DNA of 40,013 bases from a virus. Shown one piece after another: positions 1-40,013 of this stretch. The stretch spans positions 1 to 40,013 of the IMG/VR virus record IMGVR_UViG_3300021438_000030, one strand, 5' to 3'. The notes beneath the pieces are model-generated. The model saw nothing but the letters and a program-made list of their open reading frames with translations, did no database searches and was not told where the DNA came from. Within the stretch, counting starts at the first letter, position 1, and each line of letters opens with the position of its first letter. The position numbers and the translations under genes were made by a program.

Positions 1-326
1 CTCCCGACCGCATCTGCACCTTTTTAGTTCTTAATCGGCGCGTTTTGCGTCCTCGGTGCGTCGATTTGAACACGAAGGCACTACAAATTGAGCGAATCGA
101 ACGCATCGAGGCATCGAAAACGGGTCAATTAGGTGCGATTAGGTCACAAATCGAAAACGTGAAAACGCCCAATTTGCCATAATTGAGCGAATTAGTATTC
201 GATTTGGGGGCGACGCGCAGGGATGCCCGAGGCGATGCGGCCTCGATGGGGGTGGGATGGGGTTCGGGCGCAGGGAATAGGCGCAGGGCGCGGCCTAGGG
301 GCGCAGGGCGAGGCGGTGGGAGTGGG
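1..326. other. gene-free left end with short direct repeats
   Basis: No convincing gene is seen; the small open frame at 183-422 runs into the opposite-strand HNH gene and has no family resemblance. The stretch carries clustered short direct repeats: AATTGAGCGAAT at 86-97 and 181-192, ATCGAAAACG at 113-122 and 150-159, and ATTAGGT at 128-134 and 138-144. It lies downstream of the leftward HNH gene and, if the genome is circular, upstream of the small terminase gene. That is where a cos or terminase-binding site would be expected, but this role is inference. Confidence 0.4.
86..192. repeat. cluster of short direct repeats, possible terminase-binding or cos region
   Basis: Three repeat pairs lie within 107 bases: a 12-mer (86-97, 181-192), a 10-mer (113-122, 150-159) and a 7-mer spaced by ten bases (128-134, 138-144). 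Spacing near one helical turn is typical of protein-binding arrays. The function is not shown. Confidence 0.4.
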
Positions 327-755
327 CTATTCGCCGAGAACTATGCGCCGATAATCGCTCGCCCCGTATTCAATGGGGCCGTGTTCGGTATAGCGCAGGA
401 AAACGCCTCGACGTTCGATTGAGGTTTTCAGCGAGTGACACGGGGCGCAGAGTGAGGCGAATAAATTTCGGTGGAATGATTCGCCCCCAATGACGGCCCA
501 CGGGAAAACGTGGTCAACGTGGGCGGCCTGCGTAATGATGCCCTCAGATTTGCACCGTTCGCATAATGGGGCGCGGGATAGCTGCGCGGCCCTTATCTGC
601 GCCCACGCCCTCGATTTGTAGGCCGCATTATGGGAATGGCGCTCAATACTAATTTTCCTGCGCCCCCCGTGGGCCTCGCAGTAAGCTGACCCCTCGACCC
701 TCGCATCGGCGCAGCGCAGCGCCTCGCATTTGTTGTTTTTTGGTAACGTGGGCAT
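327..755 (-). CDS. HNH endonuclease (phage packaging-associated type)
   Basis: A 142-residue protein with an HNH nuclease fold. Residues 9-29 hold Cys and His that may form an extra zinc site (CEALRC, CEAHGG). The core follows with CERCKSEG, then the catalytic-type AAHVDHVFPW and a second Cys pair CAPCHS. HNH proteins of this size commonly sit just upstream of the terminase genes in HK97-type cos phages and assist DNA cleavage during packaging. Here the gene points leftward, so with joined ends it would precede the small terminase. All lysines I checked use AAA, and the base composition matches the rest of the left segment rather than the late operon. A free-standing homing nuclease is the alternative. 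Confidence 0.8.
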   Translation of the reverse strand: MPTLPKNNKCEALRCADARVEGSAYCEAHGGRRKISIERHSHNAAYKSRAWAQIRAAQLSRAPLCERCKSEGIITQAAHVDHVFPWAVIGGESFHRNLFASLCAPCHSLKTSIERRGVFLRYTEHGPIEYGASDYRRIVLGE

Positions 756-785
756 CTTTTTTTATCCTATTAGGGTTTGTCCTAG

Positions 786-801
786 GTTGAGAATGCTCAA
801 C
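786..801. promoter_or_regulatory. 16-bp operator-like dyad upstream of the left operon
   Basis: GTTGAG-AATG-CTCAAC is a perfect 6-bp inverted repeat with a 4-bp centre. It lies in the divergent intergenic region (756-868) between the leftward HNH gene and the rightward small-gene operon. A near copy, GTTGAG-ATAT-ATCAAC, lies at 3463-3478 beyond the operon terminator. Two similar sites flanking one operon suggest a common regulator, but no cognate repressor is evident in this segment. Confidence 0.4.
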
Positions 802-868
802 TATGCGTTATTATTCTTTTCAGGTTGACGCGATGGGCGTTGACCAAATCGTAAAAAAGGGGTTTTTT

Positions 869-955
869 ATGTCGCAAATTTTCGCTTATGTCGCTTCGCT
901 CTGCGTGGTTCTATTGTTCGCAGGGTTCATTCTCTCAATCGCCGAATCCAAATAA
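869..955 (+). CDS. 28-residue membrane micropeptide
   Basis: A short frame starts at ATG 869 after a purine-rich AAAAAAGGGG leader and encodes 28 residues. Residues 5-23 form one hydrophobic helix (YVASLCVVLLFAGFILSI), followed by a polar tail AESK. It is the first frame of the rightward left-segment operon and is followed within 8 bases by a second membrane micropeptide. Function unknown. A good ribosome binding site and a continuous hydrophobic helix support translation. Confidence 0.5.
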   Translation: MSQIFAYVASLCVVLLFAGFILSIAESK

Positions 956-962
956 GGGGCTA

Positions 963-1061
963 ATGATGAAAAACCAAATCCTCGACATCTTCGCGGCCCT
1001 CGTCGTCGCCTCCGCTCTCATTGTAGGTGCTCTCGCCTATTTCGACATTCTCACCAAATAA
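963..1061 (+). CDS. 32-residue membrane micropeptide
   Basis: The frame begins with tandem ATGs at 963 and 966, preceded by AAGGGGCTA, and encodes 31 or 32 residues. One predicted transmembrane helix (IFAALVVASALIVGALAYF) is flanked by a short Lys/Asn head and a DILTK tail. It sits between the 28-residue peptide and the acidic 109-residue gene, with about 8-10 bases between genes and the same AAGGGG ribosome binding signal before each. Function not recognised. Confidence 0.5.
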   Translation: MMKNQILDIFAALVVASALIVGALAYFDILTK

Positions 1062-1071
1062 GGGGCCACTA

Positions 1072-1401
1072 ATGAAAAAAGAAATTAACGTCTATCAATT
1101 CCGCGACGAATTCCGCGCCCATGGGCGAGGCGAACAATTCTCATATGAGGCGCTCGGATGGCTTTTCGCGTGGTTCGAGGACTATGCGGAATCGACGGGG
1201 GTTGAGGTTGACCTCGATGTCGTCGCGATTTGCTGCGACTTTTCCGAGGATTCGTTCGAGGATGTCGCCGAGAACTATTCCATCGACCTCAGCGAATGCG
1301 AGGACGACGACGAAAAACGCGAAGCCGTTCTCGAATTCCTGAATGACCATTCCATCGTGGTCGGTCACGATGATGATTCCGTGGTTTATCAAATTTTTTA
1401 A
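1072..1401 (+). CDS. small acidic phage protein (FSYEAL family)
   Basis: A 109-residue, strongly acidic protein. The start at 1072 is preferred over the upstream in-frame start at 1027 because it follows AAGGGGCCACTA directly. Visible features are QFSYEALGWLFAWFEDYAES (residues 21-40) and LDVVAICCDFSED, then an acidic linker and a C-terminal VVYQIF. I recognise this pattern from a family scattered through unrelated phages, often in early regions, without a known function. Its acidity would fit a protein-protein or DNA-mimic role, which is speculation. Confidence 0.6.
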   Translation: MKKEINVYQFRDEFRAHGRGEQFSYEALGWLFAWFEDYAESTGVEVDLDVVAICCDFSEDSFEDVAENYSIDLSECEDDDEKREAVLEFLNDHSIVVGHDDDSVVYQIF

Positions 1402-1411
1402 GGGGTTAAAA

Positions 1412-1678
1412 ATGAAATTTCCCGTTCTATCAATCGAGGCGTGGGCCGAGGGCGAATCTTCGTGGGTCTGGAATTCGTGGCATCGGGTCGGGTGGGTCGA
1501 GATTCCCGACTTTGCAAAATTCCCGAATGAGTCGGCCCTCGACCTGCTTTTCGCTGAGGGTTATCTCACAAAAACGGAGGGGGGCGAAGTCGAGGACGAT
1601 GGCCACAATTTGGTCATCCTCGACGAATCGACGCGCGAACCACTATTCGCGATTGAATACGGAAACCACATTTTTTAA
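1412..1678 (+). CDS. small phage protein of unknown function
   Basis: Encodes 88 residues from ATG 1412, preceded by TTAAGGGGTTAAAA, the same leader that precedes the next gene. Tryptophan-rich N-terminal part (SSWVWNSWHRVGWVEIP) and a C-terminal part ending LFAIEYGNHIF. Similar short proteins occur beside the neighbouring families in other phages and plasmids. No function is known to me. It is co-oriented and tightly spaced with genes on both sides. Confidence 0.55.
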   Translation: MKFPVLSIEAWAEGESSWVWNSWHRVGWVEIPDFAKFPNESALDLLFAEGYLTKTEGGEVEDDGHNLVILDESTREPLFAIEYGNHIF

Positions 1679-1688
1679 GGGGTTAAAA

Positions 1689-2162
1689 ATGCGAGTCATT
1701 GAGAAAACAATTTATACGTTCGACGAATTGAGCGATTCAGCAAAAGAAAACGCGCGGGAATGGATGAGGGTCGGGCTTGAATACCCGTGGTTCAATGAGG
1801 CGCGGGATTCGCTTCGCGCGTTCTGCGACGAATTTGGGATTCGCGTTCTCGATTATTCCCTCGGAGATTATCGAGGATTCGTGAAAACTGATGCCTCCGC
1901 CTCAAATTTCAGGGGACGCAAATTGTCCCAATTCGACCGCGAAGTGATGCCGACCGGATTTTGCTTTGATTGTTCGCTGCGATATACGTTCGCGGACGAA
2001 TGGAAAAAAACGGGGGACGCGCTCGAATCGTTCAAAAATGCCCTCGAATCGTTGGTTTGCGAGGTTGAGCGGGACGTTGATTTTTATTTCTCGGACGAAT
2101 CAATTGACGAATCCATAATCGCGAACGGTCACGAATTCGACGAACACGGGGGCGCAGAATGA
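1689..2162 (+). CDS. phage accessory protein resembling those annotated as toxin-antitoxin antitoxins
   Basis: A 157-residue protein from ATG 1689 (leader AAGGGGTTAAAA). The N-terminus IEKTIYTFDELSDSAKENAR followed by EW (residues 3-24) matches a widespread pattern of phage and plasmid proteins sometimes labelled antitoxin of a toxin-antitoxin stability system. The remainder includes an aromatic region (YPWFNEARDSLRAFCDEFGI) and an acidic C-terminus. No adjacent toxin is recognisable, so the antitoxin label should be treated as a family name only. Its stop overlaps the next start (ATGA, 2159-2162), indicating translational coupling. Confidence 0.6.
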   Translation: MRVIEKTIYTFDELSDSAKENAREWMRVGLEYPWFNEARDSLRAFCDEFGIRVLDYSLGDYRGFVKTDASASNFRGRKLSQFDREVMPTGFCFDCSLRYTFADEWKKTGDALESFKNALESLVCEVERDVDFYFSDESIDESIIANGHEFDEHGGAE

Positions 2163-2650
2163 AAAACCTCGAACACCTCGAAAACCTCCGCGCCCTCGAA
2201 CGATGGACGATGCCCGATTCGTATTTCGGCGAGGAATGGCCCGAATACTTCGTTTTTTTGTCTCAATGCCGAGATTCCGATGCGTTGACCCGTTCTAATT
2301 TTGAATGCGGCCTCCGCGCCCTAGGGGGTGAGTCCGATTCCGTTCTAGTCGTTCGCGAACGTCATTGGGCGGTCGGGTGGGTCGAATGGATAGCTATTCA
2401 CGAAGCGAACGTCGAGGCGATTCTCTCCGCCGATGAGATGTCCTGCGCGTTGAGCGATTATCCCGTCCTCGATGAGTCGCATTTTTCCGAATTGGAATGG
2501 GCCGAGGCCGAACAATATTGGGAATCGCTGCGACTGCGCGAACGGGTCGAACTATGCGCCGAGGCGGGGGTTTCCATCTTCGCAGCGAGGCGGGACTACA
2601 TTCCGAGCGATGACTCGGGTTTTATTTACGAACGCTGCGCGGGGGTCTAA
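2159..2650 (+). CDS. conserved phage protein of unknown function
   Basis: A 163-residue acidic protein overlapping the preceding gene by ATGA. A central motif RERHWAVGWVEWIAIH (residues 67-82) and a following DYPVLDESHFSELEWAEAEQ are typical of a family that recurs in phages and mobile elements beside the other families of this operon. No catalytic motif is visible. The context (short co-directional genes, strong terminator downstream) suggests an early accessory cassette. Confidence 0.55.
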   Translation: MKNLEHLENLRALERWTMPDSYFGEEWPEYFVFLSQCRDSDALTRSNFECGLRALGGESDSVLVVRERHWAVGWVEWIAIHEANVEAILSADEMSCALSDYPVLDESHFSELEWAEAEQYWESLRLRERVELCAEAGVSIFAARRDYIPSDDSGFIYERCAGV

Positions 2651-2652
2651 AA

Positions 2653-2913
2653 ATGCAAAAAACCGACATTCAAAATTTCATTCGTTCGGGTGGGTGGGCG
2701 TGGCCGGGGGGTTATCCCTGCGCCCTACTAATGAGGGATGGCGAGGTCATCGACGCGCAGGCCGCGCGGGAGAATTACAAATTGATTCGCAGGGAATCGG
2801 GGCGCGAATGGACTCCCGAGGCCGTTTTCGTTCATTGGGAGGGCGATTCCCTAATCTGCGCCCATTCGGGTCGAATCATCGAATCAGCCTATGGGGGCGA
2901 CGATGAAAATTGA
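2653..2913 (+). CDS. conserved small phage protein
   Basis: Encodes 86 residues beginning two bases after the preceding stop. The motif AWPGGYPCALLMRDGEVIDA (residues 16-35), followed by RENYKLI and a C-terminal LICAHSGRIIESAYG, resembles small proteins common in phage early regions that often carry a CxxC pair. Here the Cys pair is not obvious, so zinc binding is not supported. Function unknown. Confidence 0.55.
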   Translation: MQKTDIQNFIRSGGWAWPGGYPCALLMRDGEVIDAQAARENYKLIRRESGREWTPEAVFVHWEGDSLICAHSGRIIESAYGGDDEN

Positions 2914-3136
2914 GATTCGATTTGAACAAATCAACGGGGCCGACCGTCCCGTCCTATTTTTTCCCGATGAACTAGAACGGGACAAATCAATCGGCGCATA
3001 TTCCGAGGCCGAGGGCCACGTTTCAGCGTCCCGCGCTTATATGAGGGGCTGCAAAAAACCCGAGTCACCCACCGAACGCGCGGAGGCGTGGGCCGTTCTA
3101 GAACGATATTCGAGGTTTGCCAAATCCCACGAATGA
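2903..3136 (+). CDS. small hypothetical protein
   Basis: Encodes 77 residues from ATG 2903, overlapping the previous gene by 11 bases. An alternative in-frame start at 2891 would add four residues; 2903 is preferred because GGGGGCG lies just upstream. I do not recognise a family. It is the last gene of the rightward operon and ends 47 bases before the terminator hairpin. Confidence 0.5.
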   Translation: MKIEIRFEQINGADRPVLFFPDELERDKSIGAYSEAEGHVSASRAYMRGCKKPESPTERAEAWAVLERYSRFAKSHE

Positions 3137-3183
3137 ACGTCTAAAAATCTGAGGTTTCCCGCTAATCCATAAAAAGCGAATAG

Positions 3184-3232
3184 ACCTAGGGGTCGATTGA
3201 GAGTCAAATCTCGGTCGGCCCCTAGGTTTTTT
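3184..3232 (+). terminator. rho-independent terminator of the left operon
   Basis: The arms ACCTAGGGGTCGATTGAGA and TCTCGGTCGGCCCCTAGGT pair almost throughout, with G-U pairs, one unpaired base and a six-base loop, and are followed by TTTTTT. It lies 47 bases after the last rightward gene. Two of the six CCTAGG words of the left segment form the base of this stem. Confidence 0.85.
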
Positions 3233-3460
3233 CGTTTTCGGTTTCCGTTTTTGGCCCTTATGGGTCGGGAATGCGCTCGCCCCTAGGGGATGGGCCGACT
3301 AATTCGCAGCGATTCAGCCCCGTTTTCAGCGTTTCCCGTTCTATTCAGGCGCAGGGCGCAGGGATGGGCGAATCGGTCGGGATTGACTGATTTTCGGGTT
3401 TTCGGTTCTAATCGGGGCCGATTTTGAGGGGATGGAAAAACGGCCTAGAACAGCCTCGGG

Positions 3461-3480
3461 GGGTTGAGATATATCAACCC
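3461..3480. promoter_or_regulatory. second operator-like palindrome
   Basis: GGGTTGAGATATATCAACCC has 7-bp arms (GGGTTGA / TCAACCC) and an AT-rich centre. Its core matches the dyad at 786-801 in both half-sites except one base. It lies downstream of the left terminator. Confidence 0.4.
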
Positions 3481-3585
3481 ATTAGGACGGGTTTATCTCA
3501 CCTTATTCGCCCGATTTGACCCATTCCCGAGGATGTCGGGTCGGGATTGTGGGCGTTCTAGGCGCTTGGGGTGAGTGAATAATTC

Positions 3586-3651
3586 CCCTATTCCCGACAC
3601 GGACATTGGGTTAAATCGCCCTATATCCGACTCGGAAATAGGGTTGATGGT
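3586..3651. repeat. two tandem 33-bp units, each with a dyad
   Basis: The unit starting CCCTAT is repeated exactly once with a 33-base period (3586-3618 and 3619-3651); 23 of the first 29 positions match. The second copy contains a 25-bp dyad: CCCTATATCCGA, a central C, then TCGGAAATAGGG, with 11 of 12 pairs complementary. The first copy keeps 8 of 12 pairs. A three-turn spacing of dyads is what one expects of an operator pair or initiator-binding iterons. No binding protein is known. Confidence 0.5.
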
Positions 3652-3709
3652 GGTTATTTTTACGACCCCCCACCCTAGATTTTTAAAAAAAAATTTTGGG
3701 TCGGCTTTT

Positions 3710-3883
3710 TTATTTTGGAAACCGTTTTTCCAGAATCAGCGGCTCAGATTTCTTTTTGTCATCACTCTCTCCCTTGTATCCATTTGCGTAAGCCGCGCGA
3801 GCCACTGACAATGCTTTGGCCTTTGATGGGAATGGGCCTTTGCTTCCCCACATCCATCCGGCTTTTGTGTGACGTAATGGCAT
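3710..3883 (-). CDS. 57-residue basic phage protein (KGPFPSKAKA type)
   Basis: This frame encodes 57 residues from ATG 3883 to TAA 3710. The sequence GWMWGSKGPFPSKAKALSVA (residues 9-28) matches a pattern I know from many small phage proteins of the form GPFxSKAKAxxxxRAAYA. The rest is a Lys-rich tail. It is the last gene of the leftward early operon, starting two bases after the stop of the DUF5856 gene. The function of the family is unknown to me. Confidence 0.6.
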   Translation of the reverse strand: MPLRHTKAGWMWGSKGPFPSKAKALSVARAAYANGYKGESDDKKKSEPLILEKRFPK

Positions 3884-3885
3884 GA

Positions 3886-4290
3886 TTATTTGAGGAAGCG
3901 GAGCTTATACAAGGTTGAGTCGATCAGTTGAGCGATCTCATCGGTGATGTTTTGCAGTTCAGAATCCTGTGGAAACTGTGGTGCTTTACGCAATGTCGCC
4001 ACTTCATCTTTCAGGTAGTTCATGTAATCAATAGGATTGCTTGGCAAAGCATAGTCAGCCTTGTAGTCAGTCAGCAAACCATATTTACCTTGGAACGCCT
4101 CAACAAAGTCGTCAACATGATCGCCTATTTCGGTGTAAAAATTTTCCAACGCTTTATGGGCGGCGTAGCTGGTCGTTGACAGGTGGAGGATGTGAGCATT
4201 GGTCACGCTATGCAACAGGCACATAACGAATGTCATCACAGGGTCAGCACCCTTGTGCTGCGCCTCAATGCTGGCTGTATATTTCTTCAT
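3886..4290 (-). CDS. DUF5856-like (ferritin/Dps-like helical) protein
   Basis: A 134-residue, mostly helical protein. The start at 4290 is chosen because GAGGAAATCTGGA precedes it; an upstream in-frame ATG at 4317 would overlap the HNH gene further. Residues include HSVTNAHILHLSTTSYAAHK followed by a long helix with HVDDFVEAFQGKYG, the arrangement of DUF5856 proteins, which resemble the Dps/ferritin-like fold and occur in many phages. Whether it binds metal or DNA is unknown. It overlaps the YbcO-like gene by 26 bases. Confidence 0.6.
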   Translation of the reverse strand: MKKYTASIEAQHKGADPVMTFVMCLLHSVTNAHILHLSTTSYAAHKALENFYTEIGDHVDDFVEAFQGKYGLLTDYKADYALPSNPIDYMNYLKDEVATLRKAPQFPQDSELQNITDEIAQLIDSTLYKLRFLK

Positions 4291-4630
4291 TCCAGATTTC
4301 CTCATAGAGTGGGTCAAATGGGACTGGCACTTCGCTTGGCCATTGTCCCGACATAACCAATTTTCTCACGGTTCGGTAATGTGCCACAACCCACAGCTTC
4401 ATCCGTTGTTCACGGCTTAACAGGTGGCCTTGGTCAATGGCGTGGTGACAAGTTGGGCAGAGTGCTGCAATGTGATTGTCGTCAGCCTTGATTGACCGGC
4501 CTTTGCCTCCACCCCAATTGGAATGAGCCGCCTGCACCCCGTAGTCTGCGCCACAGGATTGACAGGACAGCCCCCTCACTGCTTTCAACAGCTTGGGGCT
4601 ACGGACGTATTCGTGTTTTGGAAGCATCAT
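4265..4630 (-). CDS. YbcO/DUF1364-like HNH nuclease
   Basis: A 121-residue protein starting YVRSPKLLKAVRGLSCQSC, with CQSC (near residue 23), the central AAHSNWGGGKG and CPTCHHAIDQG. This is the layout of the YbcO/DUF1364 HNH family found in lambdoid recombination regions near RusA and NinB homologues. It probably cuts branched or recombination-intermediate DNA. Its start overlaps the preceding stop by ATGA. RusA and NinB homologues lie upstream in the same operon, supporting a recombination role. Confidence 0.7.
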   Translation of the reverse strand: MMLPKHEYVRSPKLLKAVRGLSCQSCGADYGVQAAHSNWGGGKGRSIKADDNHIAALCPTCHHAIDQGHLLSREQRMKLWVVAHYRTVRKLVMSGQWPSEVPVPFDPLYEEIWNEEIYSQH

Positions 4631-4926
4631 GCTTCACCTCTTGCTCTGATTGCTTCGGCGCAGTTGCTTGCCCCAAGTTCTTTGCCTGTCATGTAAAGAA
4701 TTGGCTCCTCACTTCTGTCGTCTGCCATTGCAGTGTGATAACCATTGGCGCGTTCAGATATGCCATCACACACCTTTGCACACGCCTCACGCTCTTTAGC
4801 TGCACCAAACGCAGCGGCCACACCAAACAATCGAATGGCTGCCGTTTCATCGCAAGCGTTATGGAATTGATCGCCAACGCGAAAGCCTGCTTGTCGAACA
4901 ATGCTTATGATTTCATCTTGTGTCAT
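4627..4926 (-). CDS. small phage protein (EREACAKVC type)
   Basis: A 99-residue protein with KEREACAKVCDGISERANGY in the middle and CAEAIRARGEA at the C-terminus. This combination is very common in small early proteins of Burkholderiales and related phages and supports that host range. The function is unknown. It lies four bases after the previous gene and overlaps the next by ATGA. Confidence 0.6.
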   Translation of the reverse strand: MTQDEIISIVRQAGFRVGDQFHNACDETAAIRLFGVAAAFGAAKEREACAKVCDGISERANGYHTAMADDRSEEPILYMTGKELGASNCAEAIRARGEA

Positions 4927-8735: not shown

Positions 8736-8842
8736 ACCCGCCTTCGTGCGCCCCTTGAGAAAGAAACAATCGGCAGGAGAAGGGGGTAACTCTTTTCGGT
8801 CGGGGAGCAAATCCCAACCTAGCCGCTGTTTCAAAAACTATA

Positions 8843-9497: not shown

Positions 9498-9504
9498 GCC
9501 TTGG

Positions 9505-9533
9505 ATTATAGTTGATTTCTCTATACCAGTATA
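9505..9533 (-). promoter_or_regulatory. leftward early promoter before the Cro-like gene
   Basis: On the minus strand a perfect TATAAT (9510-9505) is preceded 17 bases upstream by TATACT (9533-9528), a poor -35 match at 3 of 6. The predicted start would be at or close to the ATG, implying a leaderless or near-leaderless transcript unless another promoter is used. Confidence 0.45.
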
Positions 9534-9535
9534 GA
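9520..9535. promoter_or_regulatory. perfect palindromic operator for the Cro-like protein
   Basis: TCTATAC-CA-GTATAGA has perfect 7-bp arms. It covers the -35 and spacer of the proposed leftward promoter, a position suited to autorepression. Related TATACTAT sequence occurs at the -10 of the rightward promoter (9581-9588), so one protein could control both directions. Confidence 0.6.
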
Positions 9536-9558
9536 CCCTTCAACTTAGTCGGGATTAC

Positions 9559-9586
9559 TTTACTCGACTGTTTAGTTGTGTATACT
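9559..9586 (+). promoter_or_regulatory. rightward early promoter
   Basis: TTTACT (9559-9564), a 16-base spacer, and TATACT (9581-9586) form a good sigma70-like promoter. The expected start near 9593 would give a leader of about 30 bases carrying AGGAAAC before ATG 9624. Confidence 0.6.
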
Positions 9587-9623
9587 ATGCTTGTCCGATA
9601 GGGACGACAACATAGGAAACAAC

Positions 9624-10094
9624 ATGAGAATCAGTAAATGGGATAAACAAGCAATCGTAAAAGCGGTCATGGCCGATGTACCAATGCCGGACAAAAAGAA
9701 ACGCAAAGAAGAACTGCAAGCCGCTGTCGTCAAGGCAATGTCACCCGAGTCGCGCAAACTATACAAAAATCACCCCAAGGCGTTGCGAACATATTGCATT
9801 GGTGAGTTAATTTATGACGGCACATGGGGTTCACGCGACATTATTGTTGGCGATGTAGATGAAGACACCATCAAAGAGTTGAAAAATAAATATCAACTCG
9901 AAGACGACAAAATTTCCGATGCGCGTTACGCCCTAAAAAGCGCAATCGAAGCGTGTACTACGCTGAAACAATTGAACGACCGTTTGCCAGAGTTCAAAAA
10001 ATATTTTCCAACACAAGAAAAACCTGTTGCCAACTTACCAGCATTGGCTAACGTGGTTGCTGACTTGACAAAATTGGGATGGCCCAAGAAATGA
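9624..10094 (+). CDS. Nmad5-like protein (tentative)
   Basis: A 156-residue protein from ATG 9624 with AGGAAAC upstream; an in-frame start at 9576 would overlap the promoter. The N-terminus MRISKWDKQAIVKAVMADVP, followed by a helix and LYKNHPKALRTYCIGELI, resembles the nucleotide modification associated domain 5 (Nmad5) pattern. That family was proposed from context to act with DNA-base modification systems and has no proven activity. No modification enzyme is adjacent here. It is the first gene of the rightward operon. Confidence 0.4.
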   Translation: MRISKWDKQAIVKAVMADVPMPDKKKRKEELQAAVVKAMSPESRKLYKNHPKALRTYCIGELIYDGTWGSRDIIVGDVDEDTIKELKNKYQLEDDKISDARYALKSAIEACTTLKQLNDRLPEFKKYFPTQEKPVANLPALANVVADLTKLGWPKK

Positions 10095-10342
10095 AAAATC
10101 TAACCAGCAGCTTCATTCATTACCTCGATGAATGGTCAACAGAAACACACCCTGACGTTTTGGTGAACTACGAGTTTTCAAAAGGCGACAAGTCGGTTGG
10201 TGAACAAGACCAGTTTGAAATTAGCGTAATCCGTGATAAAAAAGATATTTGGGATTTGCTTACTCCTTCTGAGCAGGATGAGATTGAGCAATACTGTGAA
10301 CTTGACATGAAACGAGTCATAGAAGAATGGAACCAGCCATGA
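10091..10342 (+). CDS. small hypothetical protein
   Basis: Encodes 83 residues from ATG 10091, which overlaps the previous stop as ATGA; ATG 10079 is an alternative. Acidic, with SVIRDKKDIWDLLTPSEQDE in the middle. Family not recognised. The next gene again begins in an ATGA overlap. Confidence 0.5.
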   Translation: MKNLTSSFIHYLDEWSTETHPDVLVNYEFSKGDKSVGEQDQFEISVIRDKKDIWDLLTPSEQDEIEQYCELDMKRVIEEWNQP

Positions 10343-10530
10343 ACCACACTACCCGTATGTTTCCGCGCACAATGGACGATGCGTTTCCCAACACAGTCCA
10401 GCATAACGCAATGCTTGAGCGAGCCATCTGGTTTGAGCCACATCAACCTAAAGAGATTGGTTATCAGTTCTGGGGTTACGTTGCTCTTTCTTTCTTTGCT
10501 GGCTATCTTGTCTTCAAGATTTGGGGGTAA
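10339..10530 (+). CDS. small membrane-anchored phage protein (FPRTMDDAFP type)
   Basis: A 63-residue protein starting MNHTTRMFPRTMDDAFPNTV, followed by a polar stretch and a C-terminal transmembrane helix (FWGYVALSFFAGYLVFKIWG). N-terminal FPRTxxxAF with a C-terminal helix is a recurring small phage family; its function is unknown. ATGA overlap with the upstream gene. Confidence 0.6.
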   Translation: MNHTTRMFPRTMDDAFPNTVQHNAMLERAIWFEPHQPKEIGYQFWGYVALSFFAGYLVFKIWG

Positions 10531-10531
10531 T

Positions 10532-10738
10532 ATGGATGCCCAGATTTTGTTAGACAACGCGAGAATTGCATCTCAAAACCATTCAGGTGACTCGCGCGAC
10601 AGACTTGCATTCAGGGTTGGATACCTTGAACAAACAATCAAACAGCTTGTGAATTTGCTTTCAGATACCGAAGAAATAATGTACCGACAACGCGCATTGA
10701 TTGAGCAGATGAAAAAAGGTCATTCCGCAGACCTGTAA
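10532..10738 (+). CDS. small coiled-coil protein
   Basis: A 68-residue protein from ATG 10532. The part from residue 26 on (FRVGYLEQTIKQLVNLLSDT) is a likely coiled coil with heptad leucines. It begins one base after the previous stop. Function unknown. Confidence 0.5.
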   Translation: MDAQILLDNARIASQNHSGDSRDRLAFRVGYLEQTIKQLVNLLSDTEEIMYRQRALIEQMKKGHSADL

Positions 10739-10764
10739 TTGCGGTTTTTAAACGAAAGAAGAAA

Positions 10765-11367
10765 ATGGGATTTATTGCAAAAAACAATGGTGGAGGCGAC
10801 TTCAAACGCATTCCGCCCGGCTCGTACATTGCTCGCTGCTACCTTTTGGTGGATATGGGTGAGCAGTTGTCAGATGGCAAATATGGCCAAACCATACAAC
10901 ACAAAATCCGTTTGGGTTGGGAAGTGTTTGGAGAAGACGAAACAGGCGAGCCATTGACGGTTGAATACGAAGGCGTACAGCGTCAAATGACGATTGGTAA
11001 GACCTACACCCTATCCCTGAGTGAAAAAGCCGGTCTACGCAAGGATTTGACATCTTGGCGCGGTCGTGATTTCACAGCCGAGGAGTTGGAAGGTTTCGAC
11101 ATCACGAACATTCTGAATGTTTACTGTATGTTGAACATCACCACCAGCGAAAAAGACGGCAAGACTTACACCAATATTTCTGCCATCACTCCATTGCCAT
11201 CGGCTTTGAAGAATGCCAAGCCAGCTCCAGACCATGAGCCAGTTATGTTCAACCTCGATGAACCAGATTGGCAAGTGTTTGAGGCTTTGCCTGAATGGTT
11301 GTCTGACACCATCAAAAAGTCCCCACAGTACGCAGAGCTGGCTGCAATGCCGCGCGAAGGGTTCTAA
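10765..11367 (+). CDS. phage single-stranded DNA-binding-like protein
   Basis: A 200-residue protein beginning MGFIAKNNGGGDFKRIPPGS, followed by YIARCYLLVDMG, a central IGKTYTLSLSEKAGLRKDLT, then SWRGRDFTAEELEGFDITNI and GKTYTNISAITPLP. This layout (beta-rich body, acidic C-terminus with FNLDEPDW) is that of phage proteins often annotated as ssDNA-binding proteins of the recombination module. The next gene, Gp157, is the usual neighbour. No RecT or Erf recombinase is seen. Confidence 0.65.
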   Translation: MGFIAKNNGGGDFKRIPPGSYIARCYLLVDMGEQLSDGKYGQTIQHKIRLGWEVFGEDETGEPLTVEYEGVQRQMTIGKTYTLSLSEKAGLRKDLTSWRGRDFTAEELEGFDITNILNVYCMLNITTSEKDGKTYTNISAITPLPSALKNAKPAPDHEPVMFNLDEPDWQVFEALPEWLSDTIKKSPQYAELAAMPREGF

Positions 11368-11859
11368 ATGACATCCCTCTATCAGCTCACACATGAGTTT
11401 CGCAATCAACTCGACGACCTGTTCGACGAGGATGGCGTAGCCAAACCTGAGTTTGAGGAGTTCCGTGTTCAGCTTGGCAGCAAGATCACACAGGTTGCCG
11501 CCTATGTGCTGAACACTGAGCTAGAGGCAGAACAAGCCAGCATCGCCATCAAGCGTATCAAGGCTCTCCAATCATCAAGGGAAAACAAGGCCAAGCGGCT
11601 GCGTGAGTACCTTGCTGACAACATGAAAATCTCTGGCATCACTGAAATTAAAGCCGATGATGGCTCCTTTGAGGTGAAGCTGTATGTTGACCGAGACACT
11701 TCGGTTGAGATTCAGGAGGGGGCAACCTTTCCACCCGAGCTTTGCAGCGACCCAAAACCACCAGAGCCAAGCAAAACCAAGATCAAAAATGCGATCTTGG
11801 CTGGCGAAGCTATTGGCGGCGCACAGATTGTTCGCAAAGACCGTTTAACCATCAAATAG
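11368..11859 (+). CDS. Siphovirus Gp157-family protein
   Basis: A 163-residue protein directly after the SSB-like gene. The N-terminal LYQLTHEFRNQLDDLFDEDG, the coiled-coil region (about residues 45-90, with KRIKALQSSRENKAKRLREY), and the following GITEIKADDGSFEVKL match Siphovirus Gp157. The family is linked by context to recombination or phage resistance; no biochemical role is settled. The C-terminal KPPEPSKTKIKNAILAGEAI is typical too. Confidence 0.8.
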   Translation: MTSLYQLTHEFRNQLDDLFDEDGVAKPEFEEFRVQLGSKITQVAAYVLNTELEAEQASIAIKRIKALQSSRENKAKRLREYLADNMKISGITEIKADDGSFEVKLYVDRDTSVEIQEGATFPPELCSDPKPPEPSKTKIKNAILAGEAIGGAQIVRKDRLTIK

Positions 11860-11998: not shown

Positions 11999-12217
11999 AT
12001 GGCAACACAACGCATCTACCTCGTAGGCACTCCAAGCGGTGACATTCGTTTGGTCAAAGCAAGTGTTCGCTCACAGGCTTTGTCTCATGTTGCAAACTCT
12101 ATGCTAACTCTCCGTGTGGCAACACAGGACGATTTGGTTGAGGCAATCAGCAAAGGATGTTCGGTCGAGAACGCAAAGTCTCCAGACCAGATGGATTTGC
12201 TCGAAGAAACTAAGTAA
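11999..12217 (+). CDS. small conserved Burkholderiales-phage protein
   Basis: A 72-residue protein starting two bases after the previous stop. The pattern YLVGTPSGDIRLVKASVRSQ followed by ALSHVANSM and a C-terminal VEAISKGCSVENA is one I associate with small phage and prophage proteins of Burkholderiales. No function known. Confidence 0.55.
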   Translation: MATQRIYLVGTPSGDIRLVKASVRSQALSHVANSMLTLRVATQDDLVEAISKGCSVENAKSPDQMDLLEETK

Positions 12218-12345
12218 GTTTCGAGGGGAAAGCGGATTCTGCAACGTACATCAAACGGCCTTTGGCCTACGGGGGTTAAAAAGTGGATTGGCCTCCCGCC
12301 CAACGCAGTGCAGCGAGTACCCTCACCCATAAAACAGGACAAGAT

Positions 12346-12615
12346 ATGACACAACATGAATTTGATGACTGGATTGCGGAAAACCCGCAGATATTTAAAG
12401 CATTCTGTGATGAAGCAATCAAAGCTGCATTAAAAGGTTTCAAGCATTACTCAGCAAGGACAATCATTGAGTTTTTGCGCCACCACACAAACTTGCGCGA
12501 AGCCTCCGGAGGGTTCAAGATCAACAACGATGCCGTCCCATACATGGCTCGTTTGTTTAAAGAAAACCACCCTCATTTGGGCAACTTTTTTGAGTACCGG
12601 AGCAAAGCAAAATGA
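12346..12615 (+). CDS. conserved phage protein (FKINNDAVPYMARLF type)
   Basis: An 89-residue protein from ATG 12346 following GGACAAGAT. The features FDDWIAENPQIFKAFCDEAI and FKINNDAVPYMARLFKENHP match a small phage family often found near replication or resolvase genes; no function is established. The upstream 128 bases (12218-12345) carry no gene I can support. Confidence 0.6.
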   Translation: MTQHEFDDWIAENPQIFKAFCDEAIKAALKGFKHYSARTIIEFLRHHTNLREASGGFKINNDAVPYMARLFKENHPHLGNFFEYRSKAK

Positions 12616-12689
12616 TCGACATAACTGACACCCACATTTTGTTTGGAATGATTTTTTTTGCTGTTGTTGTAGATTGGATTTTCTGGTGA
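12612..12689 (+). CDS. 25-residue membrane micropeptide
   Basis: A short frame whose ATG (12612) overlaps the preceding stop as ATGA and whose end overlaps the next GTG start as GTGA. The peptide MIDITDTHILFGMIFFAVVV is followed by DWIFW and is one hydrophobic helix. Coupling on both sides makes translation plausible. Confidence 0.45.
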   Translation: MIDITDTHILFGMIFFAVVVDWIFW

Positions 12690-12877
12690 TTAACGCATTT
12701 CATCCCGCATACGTTCAGACGTATATGCCTCAATTTCTGTCAACAATACGGAAAGAGGCCGAACAAAAAGCCAACGGCCAACGATCAGGATCATTGGCTC
12801 GATCACGACAGCCCTCAATCGAGGTGACTGAATTCCATGTTTATTCAAAGGCAGGAATGCCAAAGGTGAAAAAATGA
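12686..12877 (+). CDS. small hypothetical protein
   Basis: About 63 residues, probably from GTG 12686 in a GTGA overlap. It has INAFHPAYVQTYMPQFLSTI near the start and a basic C-terminus. Unrecognised. The next start (12874) overlaps its stop. Confidence 0.45.
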   Translation: MINAFHPAYVQTYMPQFLSTIRKEAEQKANGQRSGSLARSRQPSIEVTEFHVYSKAGMPKVKK

Positions 12878-13071
12878 GTGACGGAGGAAAAGGCAGCGCA
12901 CCGCGCCCATTCAGTGTTGGCCATGACACATTTGCAAAACAATTTGAGGCAATCTTTGGAAAGAAAAATGAAAACAGTCCTAGCACCGAACGCACCGTGG
13001 CCGAATCCGGAGGTCAAACTGGAGAAGAAAGCCTCGGGTTGGAGGAAAAGGGGAGCAAAGATAAAATTTAG
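12874..13071 (+). CDS. small phage protein (GGKGSAPRPFSV type)
   Basis: Starts MSDGGKGSAPRPFSVGHDTF and continues AKQFEAIFGKK, a pattern very common in small phage proteins, which usually end soon after IFG. Here the frame runs on for about 34 more polar residues that overlap the next gene out of frame by 104 bases. This suggests a C-terminal extension or a lost stop. Function unknown. Confidence 0.55.
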   Translation: MSDGGKGSAPRPFSVGHDTFAKQFEAIFGKKNENSPSTERTVAESGGQTGEESLGLEEKGSKDKI

Positions 13072-13195
13072 TCCAGAACTAGATTACTTTGCCGAAACCC
13101 GTGAACAAATCCAATCCATCAAAAACGCCAAAAAACCTAGAGCGCGTGATGTCACTACGGGGCGATTCAAGGGTGATAACAGGCTATCAGGGTAG
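12968..13195 (+). CDS. basic hypothetical protein overlapping its neighbours
   Basis: A 75-residue basic protein from ATG 12968 (MKTVLAPNAPWPNPEVKLEK), ending in TTGRFKGDNRLSG. It overlaps the preceding gene by 104 bases and the zinc-finger gene by 47 bases, both in different frames. Family not recognised, and one of the overlapping frames may be spurious. Long overlaps are unusual in this operon. Confidence 0.4.
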   Translation: MKTVLAPNAPWPNPEVKLEKKASGWRKRGAKIKFSPELDYFAETREQIQSIKNAKKPRARDVTTGRFKGDNRLSG

Positions 13196-13310
13196 AGATC
13201 AGAACCTTGCAAAAGTCACAAGACAAGTCCTGTGGCATTGCAAGGTCTGCGATCAATATTTTGAGACATTAGGCGAAGCAAAGGAGCATTCAATTGGAAA
13301 ACGTCATTAA
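13149..13310 (+). CDS. small C2H2-like zinc-finger protein
   Basis: About 53 residues from ATG 13149; a frame start at 13089 is also possible. The C-terminal half carries WHCKVCDQYFETLGEAKEHS followed by IGKRH, giving a C-x2-C-x12-H-x5-H site, a probable single zinc finger. Preceded by a basic segment, so nucleic acid binding is plausible but unproven. Confidence 0.55.
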   Translation: MSLRGDSRVITGYQGRDQNLAKVTRQVLWHCKVCDQYFETLGEAKEHSIGKRH

Positions 13311-13389
13311 CTTAATCTGTTTCATGTTCGTAATCGTCGTCTGCTTTTTGATTTCGTTTATCTTCGCGCTCAAGTTTCTTTCTCGATAG
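13294..13389 (+). CDS. 31-residue membrane micropeptide
   Basis: A TTG-start frame with a strong ribosome site AAAGGAG eight bases upstream, encoding MENVINLICFMFVIVVCFLI and a short basic tail KFLSR. Nearly the whole peptide is a transmembrane helix. Its 3' end overlaps the 3' end of the convergent endolysin gene by 20 bases, with no terminator between, so read-through would give antisense RNA. Confidence 0.5.
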   Translation: MENVINLICFMFVIVVCFLISFIFALKFLSR

Positions 13390-13891
13390 AAGTCTCAAAA
13401 AGCTGGCGCTCGGCAGTGCGACGAAGCACAAGGCCACGCAGCTCTTTCCCGCCAGCCTTTGTCCAACTCATAAACGCTTCGGCGGCGGCCTCCCACTCCT
13501 CTCTACCAATCTTCATCCGAATAGTAGACCGTTGAAAATTCCCCAATCCGACATTGAAGGAAAATGCAACGCAAGCGTCGAAAGCACCCTGACGACCAGC
13601 CAGATTGGGAGCAAGTCTAAGAACACCAGATTCAAAAGATCGGATGTCTTTTCGGAATATCTCTTTGAGTTCATCTTTGCTCCATACTCTGTTGTCTTCT
13701 GGTTTTAAGGGGTACTCGGGTCTGAGCATCCCTGTGTAACCTTCTTTGCGAACAATGGGGTATTTGATCTGATCTTGGTAGATCACATGGCCCCACCCAA
13801 TCGTCCACATCGAGGCGCTGCACTGGTAGGGCTTGTCACGATAGCCCTCAAACTTGTGCATCAGCTCAACACCTTTGTCGCTGGTAATCAT
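13370..13891 (-). CDS. GH24 lysozyme endolysin
   Basis: A 173-residue glycoside hydrolase family 24 muramidase that cuts the peptidoglycan glycan at the end of infection. The catalytic pattern E-8aa-(D/C)-5aa-T is present as E15, C24 and T30, with TIGWGH following. Cys replaces the more usual Asp, an accepted variant. Between GWGH and WSKDEL lies an insertion of roughly 30 residues (QDQIKYPIVRKEGYTGMLRP and on) longer than in typical members. No signal peptide, so a holin is needed. It overlaps the upstream holin-like gene by ATGA. Confidence 0.9.
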   Translation of the reverse strand: MITSDKGVELMHKFEGYRDKPYQCSASMWTIGWGHVIYQDQIKYPIVRKEGYTGMLRPEYPLKPEDNRVWSKDELKEIFRKDIRSFESGVLRLAPNLAGRQGAFDACVAFSFNVGLGNFQRSTIRMKIGREEWEAAAEAFMSWTKAGGKELRGLVLRRTAERQLFETSIEKET

Positions 13892-14394
13892 TTCTTGGAG
13901 TTCCCGCGAGAACCGAACCAGTAACCAATGATGCCGCCCAACATGGCCATCTCATCGTCGCTGAAAATCTCATTGCCAATACGGATGAGATCGTCAACGC
14001 TCTTAATCATCTCTGGGTGCGTCCACACATAGTAACCAAGGCCGCAGTTGATGAACAGAAGTTCTAAAACGAATAGGTAGGTCACGATGGGGCGCACAGT
14101 GCCAACAAAGGTCGATACCCACGGCGCAGCCTTCTCCAGTACCTTTGCCTCATGCAAATAAGCTGCCTGAGTCATGGCGGCATCGGCCTGAATAGAGACT
14201 TGATCGGTACGCAGTTCCTCGACTTTAGCTTGAGCAGCAAAGCCAGCCGCAGCCAATTGCAACTCGCGCTCAGTCTGGATACGAGCCAGTTCAGCTTCGT
14301 GCTTTTGATCGTTTCGGTTTTGAAACAGGTCAATCAGTTTTGGGAACATGGACAGCAGCAGGCCGCCAAGTGTTGAGAATAAAGATAGCATCAT
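13888..14394 (-). CDS. 3TM-type holin-like protein
   Basis: A 168-residue protein with a short amphipathic or membrane N-terminus (MLSLFSTLGGLLLSMFPKLI), a long charged coiled coil (residues 25-90), and a C-terminal pair of hydrophobic segments (VGTVRPIVTYLFVLELLFIN, and MLGGIIGYWFGSRG). The GxVRPxxTY motif and the terminal GYWFGSR match the GTA/3TM holin family. It lies directly upstream of the endolysin, supporting a role in lysis. Confidence 0.75.
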   Translation of the reverse strand: MMLSLFSTLGGLLLSMFPKLIDLFQNRNDQKHEAELARIQTERELQLAAAGFAAQAKVEELRTDQVSIQADAAMTQAAYLHEAKVLEKAAPWVSTFVGTVRPIVTYLFVLELLFINCGLGYYVWTHPEMIKSVDDLIRIGNEIFSDDEMAMLGGIIGYWFGSRGNSKK

Positions 14395-14585
14395 TCGCCT
14401 TTCGGTAGTTCGGGTTGTTCAAACTGTTCTATCTTTTTCTGTAACTGCTTTTCCAATTCGGCCATGCGTTTGTCGCGCCTGTCCATTTCAATGAACATCT
14501 TGGTCAAAATGGGTGTCACGATCAGCACAATTGCCAATATCAGGCAGGCCAATCCAACAATCAATCTGTAAATGAGTTTATCCAT
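14391..14585 (-). CDS. small membrane-anchored coiled-coil protein (possible i-spanin)
   Basis: A 64-residue protein from ATG 14585 with one N-terminal transmembrane helix (LIVGLACLILAIVLIVTPIL) and a periplasmic-style coiled coil (MDRRDKRMAELEKQLQKKIE) ending in a polar tail. The topology and position in the lysis block fit an inner-membrane spanin, though a matching outer-membrane lipoprotein is not obvious. It overlaps the upstream gene by 25 bases and the next by four. Confidence 0.45.
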   Translation of the reverse strand: MDKLIYRLIVGLACLILAIVLIVTPILTKMFIEMDRRDKRMAELEKQLQKKIEQFEQPELPKGE

Positions 14586-15289
14586 ACGGCCCACAGCTCC
14601 AGAACGAACAGCAACGTAAGGAATACTGCCATTGCTAGTTCTACCCTTTCCAGATGCTCCTCCTCGCGTAGCCATGAATCTTGCTGCTTTCTGATACGTT
14701 CGCGCTCACGACGAGCCGCTTGCTTCTCTTTAGCATTTTCGTATATTGCATTAAAGTTGTCCCACAATGGCCCAAGTTGGGGCGGAACATGAGCGCCGCG
14801 CATCATGCCACTGAGCTTCATATACGCACCGTCAAGCTCATGCCTGATCTGAGACAAAATCAGGATGTCCCGAGGGTCTGGCCTATCCATAGCGTAGACC
14901 TCCTCAGATTTCGTGTCGTATAGCTCCGACAGTTCGCGGTGATGGTGGTAAAAGTCACCAATGTGCGTCACAAACTGCTGGACGATTTCAGCCTCGGTTG
15001 GAATGTGCTTGATGAACACTTCCTTGGGCTTGGGTTTGACAGGCTCACTAGGTGAGCTTGTTGTGACTGCTGGCTGCTCAACCTTTGGCGCGGGTTTCCC
15101 AAATAGCCCACGAACAATGCTCCAAATGCCCTTGACCTCTTTTACGATGGCTTGGGCATCTTCCGCTGCTTTCTTTATTTTTTGTACCTGTACCTTGCCG
15201 TCTGACAAGGCTTCGCAACAGTATTGGATGCCGCTGAAAGCACCCTGCATTGCTTTAATAGCTAACCCGATAGAGATTGGGTCAAGCAC
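14561..15289 (-). CDS. environmental-phage protein, C-terminal membrane anchor
   Basis: A 242-residue protein starting MLDPISIGLAIKAMQGAFSG. A proline-rich linker (residues 68-95) follows, then a helical region and a C-terminal transmembrane helix (LAMAVFLTLLFVLELWAVWI). The MLDPxSIxLAxxAxxxAF start and helical body occur in a family common in marine and freshwater phages. Its role is unknown; its place among lysis genes and its membrane anchor hint at an envelope function. Confidence 0.55.
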   Translation of the reverse strand: MLDPISIGLAIKAMQGAFSGIQYCCEALSDGKVQVQKIKKAAEDAQAIVKEVKGIWSIVRGLFGKPAPKVEQPAVTTSSPSEPVKPKPKEVFIKHIPTEAEIVQQFVTHIGDFYHHHRELSELYDTKSEEVYAMDRPDPRDILILSQIRHELDGAYMKLSGMMRGAHVPPQLGPLWDNFNAIYENAKEKQAARRERERIRKQQDSWLREEEHLERVELAMAVFLTLLFVLELWAVWINSFTD

Positions 15290-15290
15290 A

Positions 15291-15482
15291 TCACTCGTCT
15301 TTTATTTCTTTAATGATCTGCCAAGTTTTGTGGCCAATCATCAGAACGGTGTAAATCAAAGTTGCCCAAAGAACCAGCTCACTTACCTGAACACCGGCAA
15401 CGGTTGCTAGAGATACCGTTGCTGGAGGCGCTACCTTTGCCACCACTGCTGTCACCGTTTCTGTTGAATGATCTGCTGCCAT
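15291..15482 (-). CDS. holin-like protein
   Basis: A 63-residue protein. The segment VAKVAPPATVSLATVAGVQV followed by the transmembrane helix LVLWATLIYTVLMIGHKTWQ is the pattern of small phage holins with APPA followed by WxTLxYTxL. It is the first gene of the lysis block, just downstream of the sugar-transferase genes. With the 3TM-type holin downstream, the phage has two holin candidates. Confidence 0.6.
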   Translation of the reverse strand: MAADHSTETVTAVVAKVAPPATVSLATVAGVQVSELVLWATLIYTVLMIGHKTWQIIKEIKDE

Positions 15483-15513
15483 GCTTTACCCCGAAAATGT
15501 TGGGCAAAGTATA

Positions 15514-15942
15514 TCAAAGGTGCTTTAAAACAACATCTGGCTTTACAAATCTATCAGCGTCAAATTCATAGGCTTCCCACCAAAGAAACTGATTGGGAGC
15601 CAGATATTCGCGGCCTTTTAAAAGGTTCACGTTCTCTGGATGGCCATAGATCAACGGGTCTGAAATCCCCCACAAGACAATCCCCGGTTTGCCCTCAGAC
15701 CATGCCAAATGCTGAAAGAAGCTATCGCAGCCAATCCATGTTCGGCAGGCTTGAAGCAGCATTTTTAGGTCGTCTAATGATAAATTTTGACGAAAATCTG
15801 TGCAAATTTGCGTTTCACCAGTGATTCCGACCTGTATTACAGGCTCATCAATCATGGACAAAAGCTCTTTCCAATACGGATAATTCTTTGGGTTTTCCTT
15901 GCCGTTGGTCAGCTTTTTGGAGTACGGTGAAATCAGAATCAC
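15514..15942 (-). CDS. C-terminal half of a GT9-like (heptosyltransferase-fold) glycosyltransferase
   Basis: A 142-residue protein starting at GTG 15942 in a GTGA overlap with the previous stop. It begins MILISPYSKKLTNGKENPKN, then WKELLSMI, and contains LKMLLQACRTWIGCDSFFQH, which correspond to the second Rossmann domain of GT-B enzymes of the GT9 type (nucleotide-sugar-binding half). It lacks the N-terminal acceptor domain, which appears at the C-terminus of the upstream gene. Coupled translation could produce two chains that assemble. A split or decayed gene is the alternative. Confidence 0.6.
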   Translation of the reverse strand: MILISPYSKKLTNGKENPKNYPYWKELLSMIDEPVIQVGITGETQICTDFRQNLSLDDLKMLLQACRTWIGCDSFFQHLAWSEGKPGIVLWGISDPLIYGHPENVNLLKGREYLAPNQFLWWEAYEFDADRFVKPDVVLKHL

Positions 15943-16907
15943 AGGTACATCCTTTCAAACGCCTTCTCAATGCTCTCAGTCCATTTCCATGCGTCCATCT
16001 TCTTGTAGATGTTCCACTGGTCGATGTCACCAAATAGCGACTGAGCTTCGGCAATAGATCGGCCCGGCACAACCTCTGGATAGCAAGTAAATACTATAGG
16101 GTTTTTGATCTTAGGCAGAATCTTAGAAAACACAATGTGATCGCCTAACCCGCAGTTCAACACAACAATGGTCTTGTCTTTGTGTTCCACAAAGTTGCGG
16201 AAGATGCGCTCGTCATGCTCATACATTTCTTGGCCAACTTCACTACGGATTCCACCCGTGGGGCTTTTGAGATGCCATGTCATAGCATCAGGCACAACAA
16301 ACAAATCGTAGCCTTTTTTGTGCAAACCATAGGTAAAAAGCGTTTCCTCTCGATGAGCCACACGCGATAAGCCAAGATTGAAGTCATGTACGCCAGCACG
16401 ATACAGAAATGAGCAATATAAATGCTCAACCATTTTTACTTCATCAATCAAGCCCCATTGAATATTTGGCTCTGAGTAAATATTTTTAATCAGCCCAGAT
16501 GAACCAAGACATTCTGGCTTGTGAGGCGGGTTCATAACCGTACCGCCAACAGCTCCAACATTTCCAAGGGCGTATGCGGAAAGCGTATCTAGAACATTTG
16601 GTTCTGGGATTGCATCATCATCAACGCGCCACACCCAATCAAACCCCCATGTGTTTGCCATTTGGTGAATGTGGTGCTGACCTTTCTTGGGGGCGTAGAC
16701 CCATTCCCAATCTAAGCCCTTGCAGTGCATGACGTAGAACAGGTTTTGATACAGCGGCTCGTTCCGCATATCTTGCGGCTCGTCGTTGTCATCAAAGATG
16801 ATGAGTTTGTCAGGCAGTCTGGACTGATTCAGAATTGCTTGAATCACCAACGGCAGAGTGGTGAAGTAGCGGCCACGGGTCGCTACCGAACAAAGAATCT
16901 TGCTCAT
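15939..16907 (-). CDS. GT2-type glycosyltransferase fused to a GT9 N-terminal half
   Basis: A 322-residue protein. Residues 1-240 form a GT-A glycosyltransferase: LCSVATRGR near the start, LIIFDDND, and the metal-binding DDD at 96-98 (WRVDDDAIPEPN). Residues 245-322 look different and carry IVVLNCGLGDHIVFSKILPK, the glycine-rich start of a GT9 N-terminal domain. The chain ends exactly where a GT-B enzyme would cross to its second domain, which is the next gene. Such phage enzymes may glycosylate virion proteins or host surface sugars; the target is unknown. Confidence 0.75.
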   Translation of the reverse strand: MSKILCSVATRGRYFTTLPLVIQAILNQSRLPDKLIIFDDNDEPQDMRNEPLYQNLFYVMHCKGLDWEWVYAPKKGQHHIHQMANTWGFDWVWRVDDDAIPEPNVLDTLSAYALGNVGAVGGTVMNPPHKPECLGSSGLIKNIYSEPNIQWGLIDEVKMVEHLYCSFLYRAGVHDFNLGLSRVAHREETLFTYGLHKKGYDLFVVPDAMTWHLKSPTGGIRSEVGQEMYEHDERIFRNFVEHKDKTIVVLNCGLGDHIVFSKILPKIKNPIVFTCYPEVVPGRSIAEAQSLFGDIDQWNIYKKMDAWKWTESIEKAFERMYL

Positions 16908-39933: not shown

Positions 39934-40013
39934 GGGAATTCCCTTAAATCCTGTCAAGTAGTATAGCTTACTCCCCCTGTTGAGTTACCTATCCTACGAA
40001 ATTGACAAATCGG
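39934..40013 (-). other. right-end leader upstream of the small terminase
   Basis: Eighty bases without a gene. GGGAATTCCC (39934-39943), a palindrome, is next to the terminase start codon. TATACT occurs on the minus strand without a good -35. If the ends join, this and 1-326 form a stretch of about 400 bases that could hold the cos site. Confidence 0.35.

Follow-up and report, generated by a model that had tools for sequence, protein, structure and literature searches.

A terminal block with its own word usage is exchanged as a unit between related cos phages

The virus record IMGVR_UViG_3300021438_000030, analysed here over its full 40,013 bases (the window), is a near-complete cos phage whose contig ends at the cos site between an HNH endonuclease gene and the terminase genes, and its anomalous left 3.6 kb (the island, or block), the HNH-side terminus at one physical genome end, is written in a dialect of its own. 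Related phages swap the whole stretch from the DUF5856 gene to cos as one unit, always with the same inner boundary. We hold with good confidence that the segment is a terminal module, and the whole explanation, in which a terminal cos module is exchanged as a block and its dialect is inherited with it, appears to us reasonably probable.

The dialect is a property of the DNA. By delta*, the dinucleotide-signature difference between a segment and the rest of its own genome, positions 1 to 3.65 kb score 0.32, and the highest of 63 other stretches of the same size scores 0.128, so that word counts along the window clearly set the segment apart. Relative abundances in island versus rest are 0.71 versus 1.32 for CA/TG, 1.51 versus 0.86 for CG, 0.61 versus 0.91 for AG/CT, 0.67 versus 0.92 for AC/GT and 1.34 versus 0.96 for AT; the bias is strand-symmetric and present in every sub-interval to about 3660, coding and noncoding alike. 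The first-pass annotation had read by eye a left segment free of GATC and rich in CCTAGG, TCGA and GGGG, with nearly all lysines encoded by AAA, and counting upholds each of these points. GATC is absent before 3922 (the annotation had put the edge at 3913) and then occurs at 3922 and 3934, with about 14–16 sites expected in the segment under a maximal-order Markov model (P of zero, about 6e-7; still 0.002 after scaling to the depletion in this phage's own core, observed/expected (O/E) 0.43). CCTAGG occurs at 294, 781, 2320, 3185, 3221 and 3282 and nowhere else in the 40 kb; TCGA occurs 46 times within the first 4 kb versus 109 times over the remaining 36 kb, and GGGG 46 versus 50 times. All 21 lysine codons in the island open reading frames (ORFs) are AAA (6 of 6 within HNH), against 49% in the remainder of the window, and the shift extends to Gly GGG (39% vs 4%), Pro CCC (65% vs 14%) and Leu CTA (23% vs 5%). 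The abrupt change seen in the annotation is thus real, but its edge at 3912 is not: composition and alignments place the boundary at about 3613–3660.

Word usage that changes abruptly near 3.65 kb is also what an assembly chimera of two phages would show, as the annotation had proposed. However, window positions 965–4651 match G001 838–4538 in one alignment of 3,742 columns (78%), and 1686–4630 match G015 in another (77%), both running unbroken straight over the junction. These are independent contigs, G001, G002 and G015 all have the same dialect at the same location, and the same architecture recurs in many metagenomes; the relatives sharing this junction refute a chimera, to which we assign next to no probability. 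The G015 contig has an oddity of its own at its end (L113, 16150–16874), where the last ~700 bases are GC-rich and unrelated to relatives and may be an assembly chimera.

A positional survey covered 29 profiled genomes having both DUF5856 and HNH. In 13 of them, no other region is as anomalous in dinucleotide usage as the DUF5856–HNH interval (delta* 0.17–0.34), other regions reaching at most about 0.15 (exception, G022 at 0.21). In seven genomes, including the Methylophilaceae phage P19250A, DUF5856 and HNH abut and the anomaly is absent; across 52 HNH loci, 22 lie above the largest of 148 null windows. Even among phages sharing at least 94% TerL identity, the dialects themselves differ strongly from block to block: GA/TC is 1.31 in the window, 0.47 in G024 and 0.43 in G026, and AG/CT is 0.40 in G027, with AA, CC and CG up and CA and CAG down as common tendencies. 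Alignments of other-dialect relatives to the window begin only at 3613 (G024), 3652 (G025) and 3655 (G017) and run inward from there, so that the exchanged blocks share one inner edge. The HNH ortholog, compared in 19 genomes, resembles its own operon in dialect (mean cosine 0.84, against 0.36 with other operons; p=0.0002), as does the noncoding terminus (0.71 vs 0.40, p=0.0002), but DUF5856 does not (p=0.41); the dialect thus belongs to the DNA block and not to particular genes or a strand. A tie to gene families was rejected because homologues of two island proteins, p1689 and p1072, sit in dialect-free blocks (G009, G011 and G013), and a general property of terminal DNA because blocks of late-strand genes and model phages show nothing of the kind.

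A second survey, a DNA-pattern search of IMG/VR for an operon marker ending ALAYFDILTK, returned 35 contigs, of which 29 were testable; delta* is at least 0.17 in 13 of these operons, several of them without detectable relation to the window phage. The last codons of the YFDILTK motif and the bases that follow (GACATTCTCACAAAATAAGGGG; window 1039–1065) are nearly invariant DNA across otherwise diverged operons (L147, L325, L330, L331, L335, L341, L348, L351, L354 and others), and this stretch keeps CTC even in operons that avoid CTC elsewhere; it is possibly a nucleic-acid signal.

The features of the terminal segment and its inner flank are as follows.

1–326, no strand: terminal noncoding DNA at the HNH-side cos end; dialect present, matching its own operon (p=0.0002)
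327–755, minus: HNH endonuclease gene (phrog_144, E 2e-20; PF01844, E 1e-8), upstream of terminase across cos
787–814, plus: sigma-70-like candidate promoter, TTGAGA-16-TATTAT, the only match in 1–4400
869–955, plus: 28-aa hydrophobic peptide MSQIFAYVASLCVVLLFAGFILSIAESK, preceded by a Shine–Dalgarno sequence; close relative in G024 (MSPILCYIASLCVVLLFVGFILQLAEAK)
963–1061, plus: 32-aa transmembrane-like peptide ending ALAYFDILTK, the conserved operon marker (35 IMG/VR contigs)
1072–1401, plus: acidic 109-aa protein (p1072) with 30 D/E and 7 K/R; phrog_9974, no known function
1412–1678, plus: 88-aa protein, no family; 91% identical in G001
1689–2162, plus: 157-aa protein (p1689); phrog_10310 / phrog_5162, no known function
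2159–2650, plus: 163-aa protein; weak phrog_4313 / phrog_3906, no known function
2653–2913, plus: 86-aa protein; homologues in the islands of G001, G002 and G035
2903–3136, plus: 77-aa protein; homologues in six other islands
3182–3229, plus: hairpin terminator candidate, 20 pairs then a T-run; its arms are two of the six CCTAGG sites
3613–3660, no strand: inner boundary of the exchanged block; other-dialect relatives align only inward of it
3710–3883, minus: small conserved ORF (57 aa) directly inward of the boundary, on the core-like side; homologous ORF in 15 island relatives
3886–4317, minus: DUF5856 gene (PF19174, E 5e-21), the first core gene, without the dialect (matching p=0.41)
37911–39584, minus: terminase large subunit (TerL), 60.9% to P19250A TerL
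39562–39957, minus: terminase small subunit (TerS; Terminase_4, E 7e-7), at the physical end opposite HNH

Between the candidate promoter and the terminator, about eight small plus-strand ORFs form a divergent operon. A consensus scan for promoters and terminators was overall no better than shuffles; the two elements are supported instead by fixed position and conservation in relatives, with promoter-like sites at an equal offset (31–34 nt from the HNH start) in seven islands and the same terminator hairpin in G001, G002 and G015.

The minus strand of the window carries terminase, portal and large tail-type genes. HNH (327–755) is found at one end of the contig and TerS (39562–39957) at the other, whereas in G002, G017 and G021 they sit side by side, with GGGAGCAGGCGCGGGGTCAATT in between (CGGAGCAGGCGCGGGGTCAATT in G017). 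The left end of the window halts exactly at CGGGAG, where spanning relatives run on from GGGAG into CAGGCGCGGGGTCAATT, and the right end picks up at GTCAATTTCG (GTCAATT); in the spanning contigs, the junction continues CAGGCGCGGGG. The window, G018, G020 and G022 share one end base (GGGAG or a close variant), G002, G017 and G021 read through CAGGCGCGGGGTCAATT, and about two dozen of 80 TerL contigs start 390–450 bp before TerL. These shared contig ends are read as physical cos ends, and the ~10 nt (CAGGCGCGGG) absent from the linear contig at the junction may presumably correspond to the cohesive overhang. At the extreme right, the seven bases at 40007–40013 (minus-strand reading CCGATTT) do not agree with the sequence that the spanning relatives have across the cos junction and are probably an end artefact. 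The sole TerL relative in a genome collection was an uncultured gammaproteobacterial metagenome-assembled genome (60%), and a DNA-level search against cultured phages gave zero matches. Elsewhere in the window, 8752–8829 (minus) matches the int-alpA RNA family (RF02996, 38 bits; cut-off 35.8), and 17582–20014 (minus) encodes a putative 810-aa fibre-like protein with long GFSGYSGISG-type repeats.

Our reading is that the segment, from the HNH-side cos end to the fixed inner boundary at about 3613–3660, forms one terminal module of a linear phage genome with cos ends. It comprises the noncoding terminus, HNH and the divergent small-ORF operon with its own candidate promoter and terminator; related phages trade it as one block, and its block-specific dialect covers coding and noncoding DNA. 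If packaging runs as in lambda and HK97, it would start from the terminase side, and the HNH end would therefore enter the next host first; a host-type promoter there could, on the same analogy, let the operon be read at once on entry. More tentatively, the small, often acidic and fast-exchanged proteins may act early against host functions or defences. The dialect was most likely inherited with the block, which would evolve within a shared pool of exchangeable terminal modules and for the most part separately from the core genome; selection on first-entering DNA might have sharpened the dialect.

Several observations weigh against this proposal. At the same place, the block is no more than CpG-poor in G011, G030 and G031, and that of G039 and G042 consists of late-strand genes and shows no anomaly. 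The searches made gave none of the island proteins a known function, and PDB fold searches with two of them had no match. Among 281 records, none of those 9 kb or longer came close to a matching dialect throughout, and therefore no donor pool has been identified.

The annotation had suggested that the segment came from another source under selection against GATC. The first part stands in modified form, as exchange between related phages at a fixed boundary gives the segment its own lineage; the second does not, because sister phages avoid GATC genome-wide. Their cores hold 5 GATC sites against 119 expected (G002), 1 against 112 (G015) or none (G021 and G022), and TerL has 0 in G002, G015, G024 and G025, as against 4 for the window and 14 for G017. 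The window core, with 69 sites against 161 expected, has partly regained GATC, and the contrast therefore looks sharper here than in relatives. A patch at 12000–16000 is dense in GATC (19 sites per 4 kb versus ~3 per 2 kb elsewhere), which suggests that it derives from a lineage without GATC avoidance. Neither the island of the window nor its core contains GGACC and, together with the loss of GATC in sister phages, this indicates that restriction-like avoidance is genome-wide. Avoidance of palindromes is likewise not specific to the segment: O/E in island versus core is 0.82 versus 0.79 for 4-mers and 0.48 versus 0.31 for 6-mers, and since palindromes are no rarer in the island, type II palindrome avoidance was rejected as the cause of the dialect. 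An avoidance of another kind occurs in the G027 island (in L219), where the non-palindromic CATC/GATG is found 0 times against 26 expected, although over-represented (1.39) in the G027 core.

A single recent insertion from an unrelated donor, not yet ameliorated, would account for the compositional contrast, and recent island substitutions do run away from the dialect, towards core-like words (gain/loss 42/20 for AG, 35/15 for CA and 21/62 for CC). However, four relatives share the block at 74–81% DNA identity with synonymous divergence about as in core genes, so that the block is old, and no record carries such a signature throughout; we regard a recent insertion as improbable. The same substitutions bear on the equally improbable idea that a local mutational process on the terminal block makes the dialect in situ. 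A strand-symmetric bias at the DNA level that includes noncoding sequence would fit such a process, but recent changes in AG, CA and CC leave the dialect by more than a stationary simulation allows; those in CG and AT do not exceed it, and the substitution test is therefore mixed. Opposite dialects occur, moreover, in phages whose TerL are at least 97% identical (GA/TC 1.31 vs 0.45), and operon-free blocks at the same place (G039 and G042) show nothing. On the strength of the opposite dialects in near-identical phages and the contrary run of substitutions, local mutation bias was rejected.

Selection on first-entering DNA is a more serious contender, which we nevertheless consider doubtful as the main cause. 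It holds that with few distinct short words fewer host recognition systems see the leading end before early proteins are made, so that the dialect mirrors host defences. Of 604 known restriction specificities, each of the 12 islands compared has sites for fewer than does any equal-sized stretch of the same genome's core (307 in the window island vs 334–394 in its core; 248 vs 336–386 in G024), with total sites about equal, and 6-mer richness falls 4–12 sd below each segment's own dinucleotide Markov model, against 3–7 sd in core stretches; noncoding DNA also carries the dialect, and the window island kept 0 GATC although its core regained the word. Yet any strong bias yields low richness, and low word diversity may by itself explain the smaller number of specificities hit. 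The words missing specifically from the island are very many and mostly non-palindromic, 6-mer palindromes are no more strongly avoided there than in the core, and CCTAGG and GGGG multiply. A bolder version, to which we give little credence, is that phages of this environmental group limit their first-entering DNA to a small vocabulary particular to each lineage, which would passively shield it from many host recognition systems until early proteins act, and that they swap whole terminal blocks to match changing host defences. We retain inheritance of the dialect with the exchanged block as the more probable account.

Structure models of the 109-aa and 157-aa proteins are confident (AF2 pLDDT 88 and 89) but had zero PDB fold matches (for the 109-aa protein, at E<=0.001). 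Recognised anti-defence proteins were sought in the island through Pfam, PHROGs and NCBIfam with no relevant match, the best hit to the PADLOC defence library reached only E 0.014, and a search for p1072 in plasmids found none. In two phages with no other relationship (L271, ~751–2750; L298, ~9501–11500), homologues of the 163-aa protein also lie in local composition anomalies, and these go the same way, with AA and CG up and AG and CA down.

We found no description of such a terminal dialect block in the literature covered, which excluded subscription journals. Its interest is that a segment at a fixed position, spanning genes and noncoding DNA, departs from its own genome more than anything in lambda, HK97 or T7, and that its change as a block from one close relative to another offers a natural experiment on the determinants of DNA composition. 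In many environmental phages, composition alone flags a terminal accessory operon that encodes small proteins yet to be characterised, and such operons are a promising place to seek early host-takeover or anti-defence proteins.

Early genes on the first-entering end are familiar from T5, with its first-step-transfer DNA, and from the T7 early region; the latter shows only a weak anomaly (0.10). Nowhere does delta* exceed 0.10 in lambda, HK97 or T7, and the maxima are 0.10–0.14 when partial sequences from two further phages are included. Leading regions of conjugative plasmids are described as carrying anti-defence genes (PMC11541004), and as presented there they resemble the island in being a small exchangeable gene cluster at the presumed first-entering end; they differ in that the island holds no known anti-defence family and its first entry would follow by analogy, and the title and abstract of that paper mention no word-usage dialect. 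The arrangement of the window is that of HK97, with HNH at one end, TerS and TerL at the other and cos between (HK97 TerS 50–535, HNH 39054–39413), but HK97 and lambda have neither a divergent terminal operon nor a terminal anomaly (0.061 and 0.040 in their last windows). The closest cultured relative by TerL (60.9%), phage P19250A (KX815270), has the same HNH and DUF5856 genes but, unlike the window, separates them by a gap of 5 bp, with no terminal operon and no dialect.

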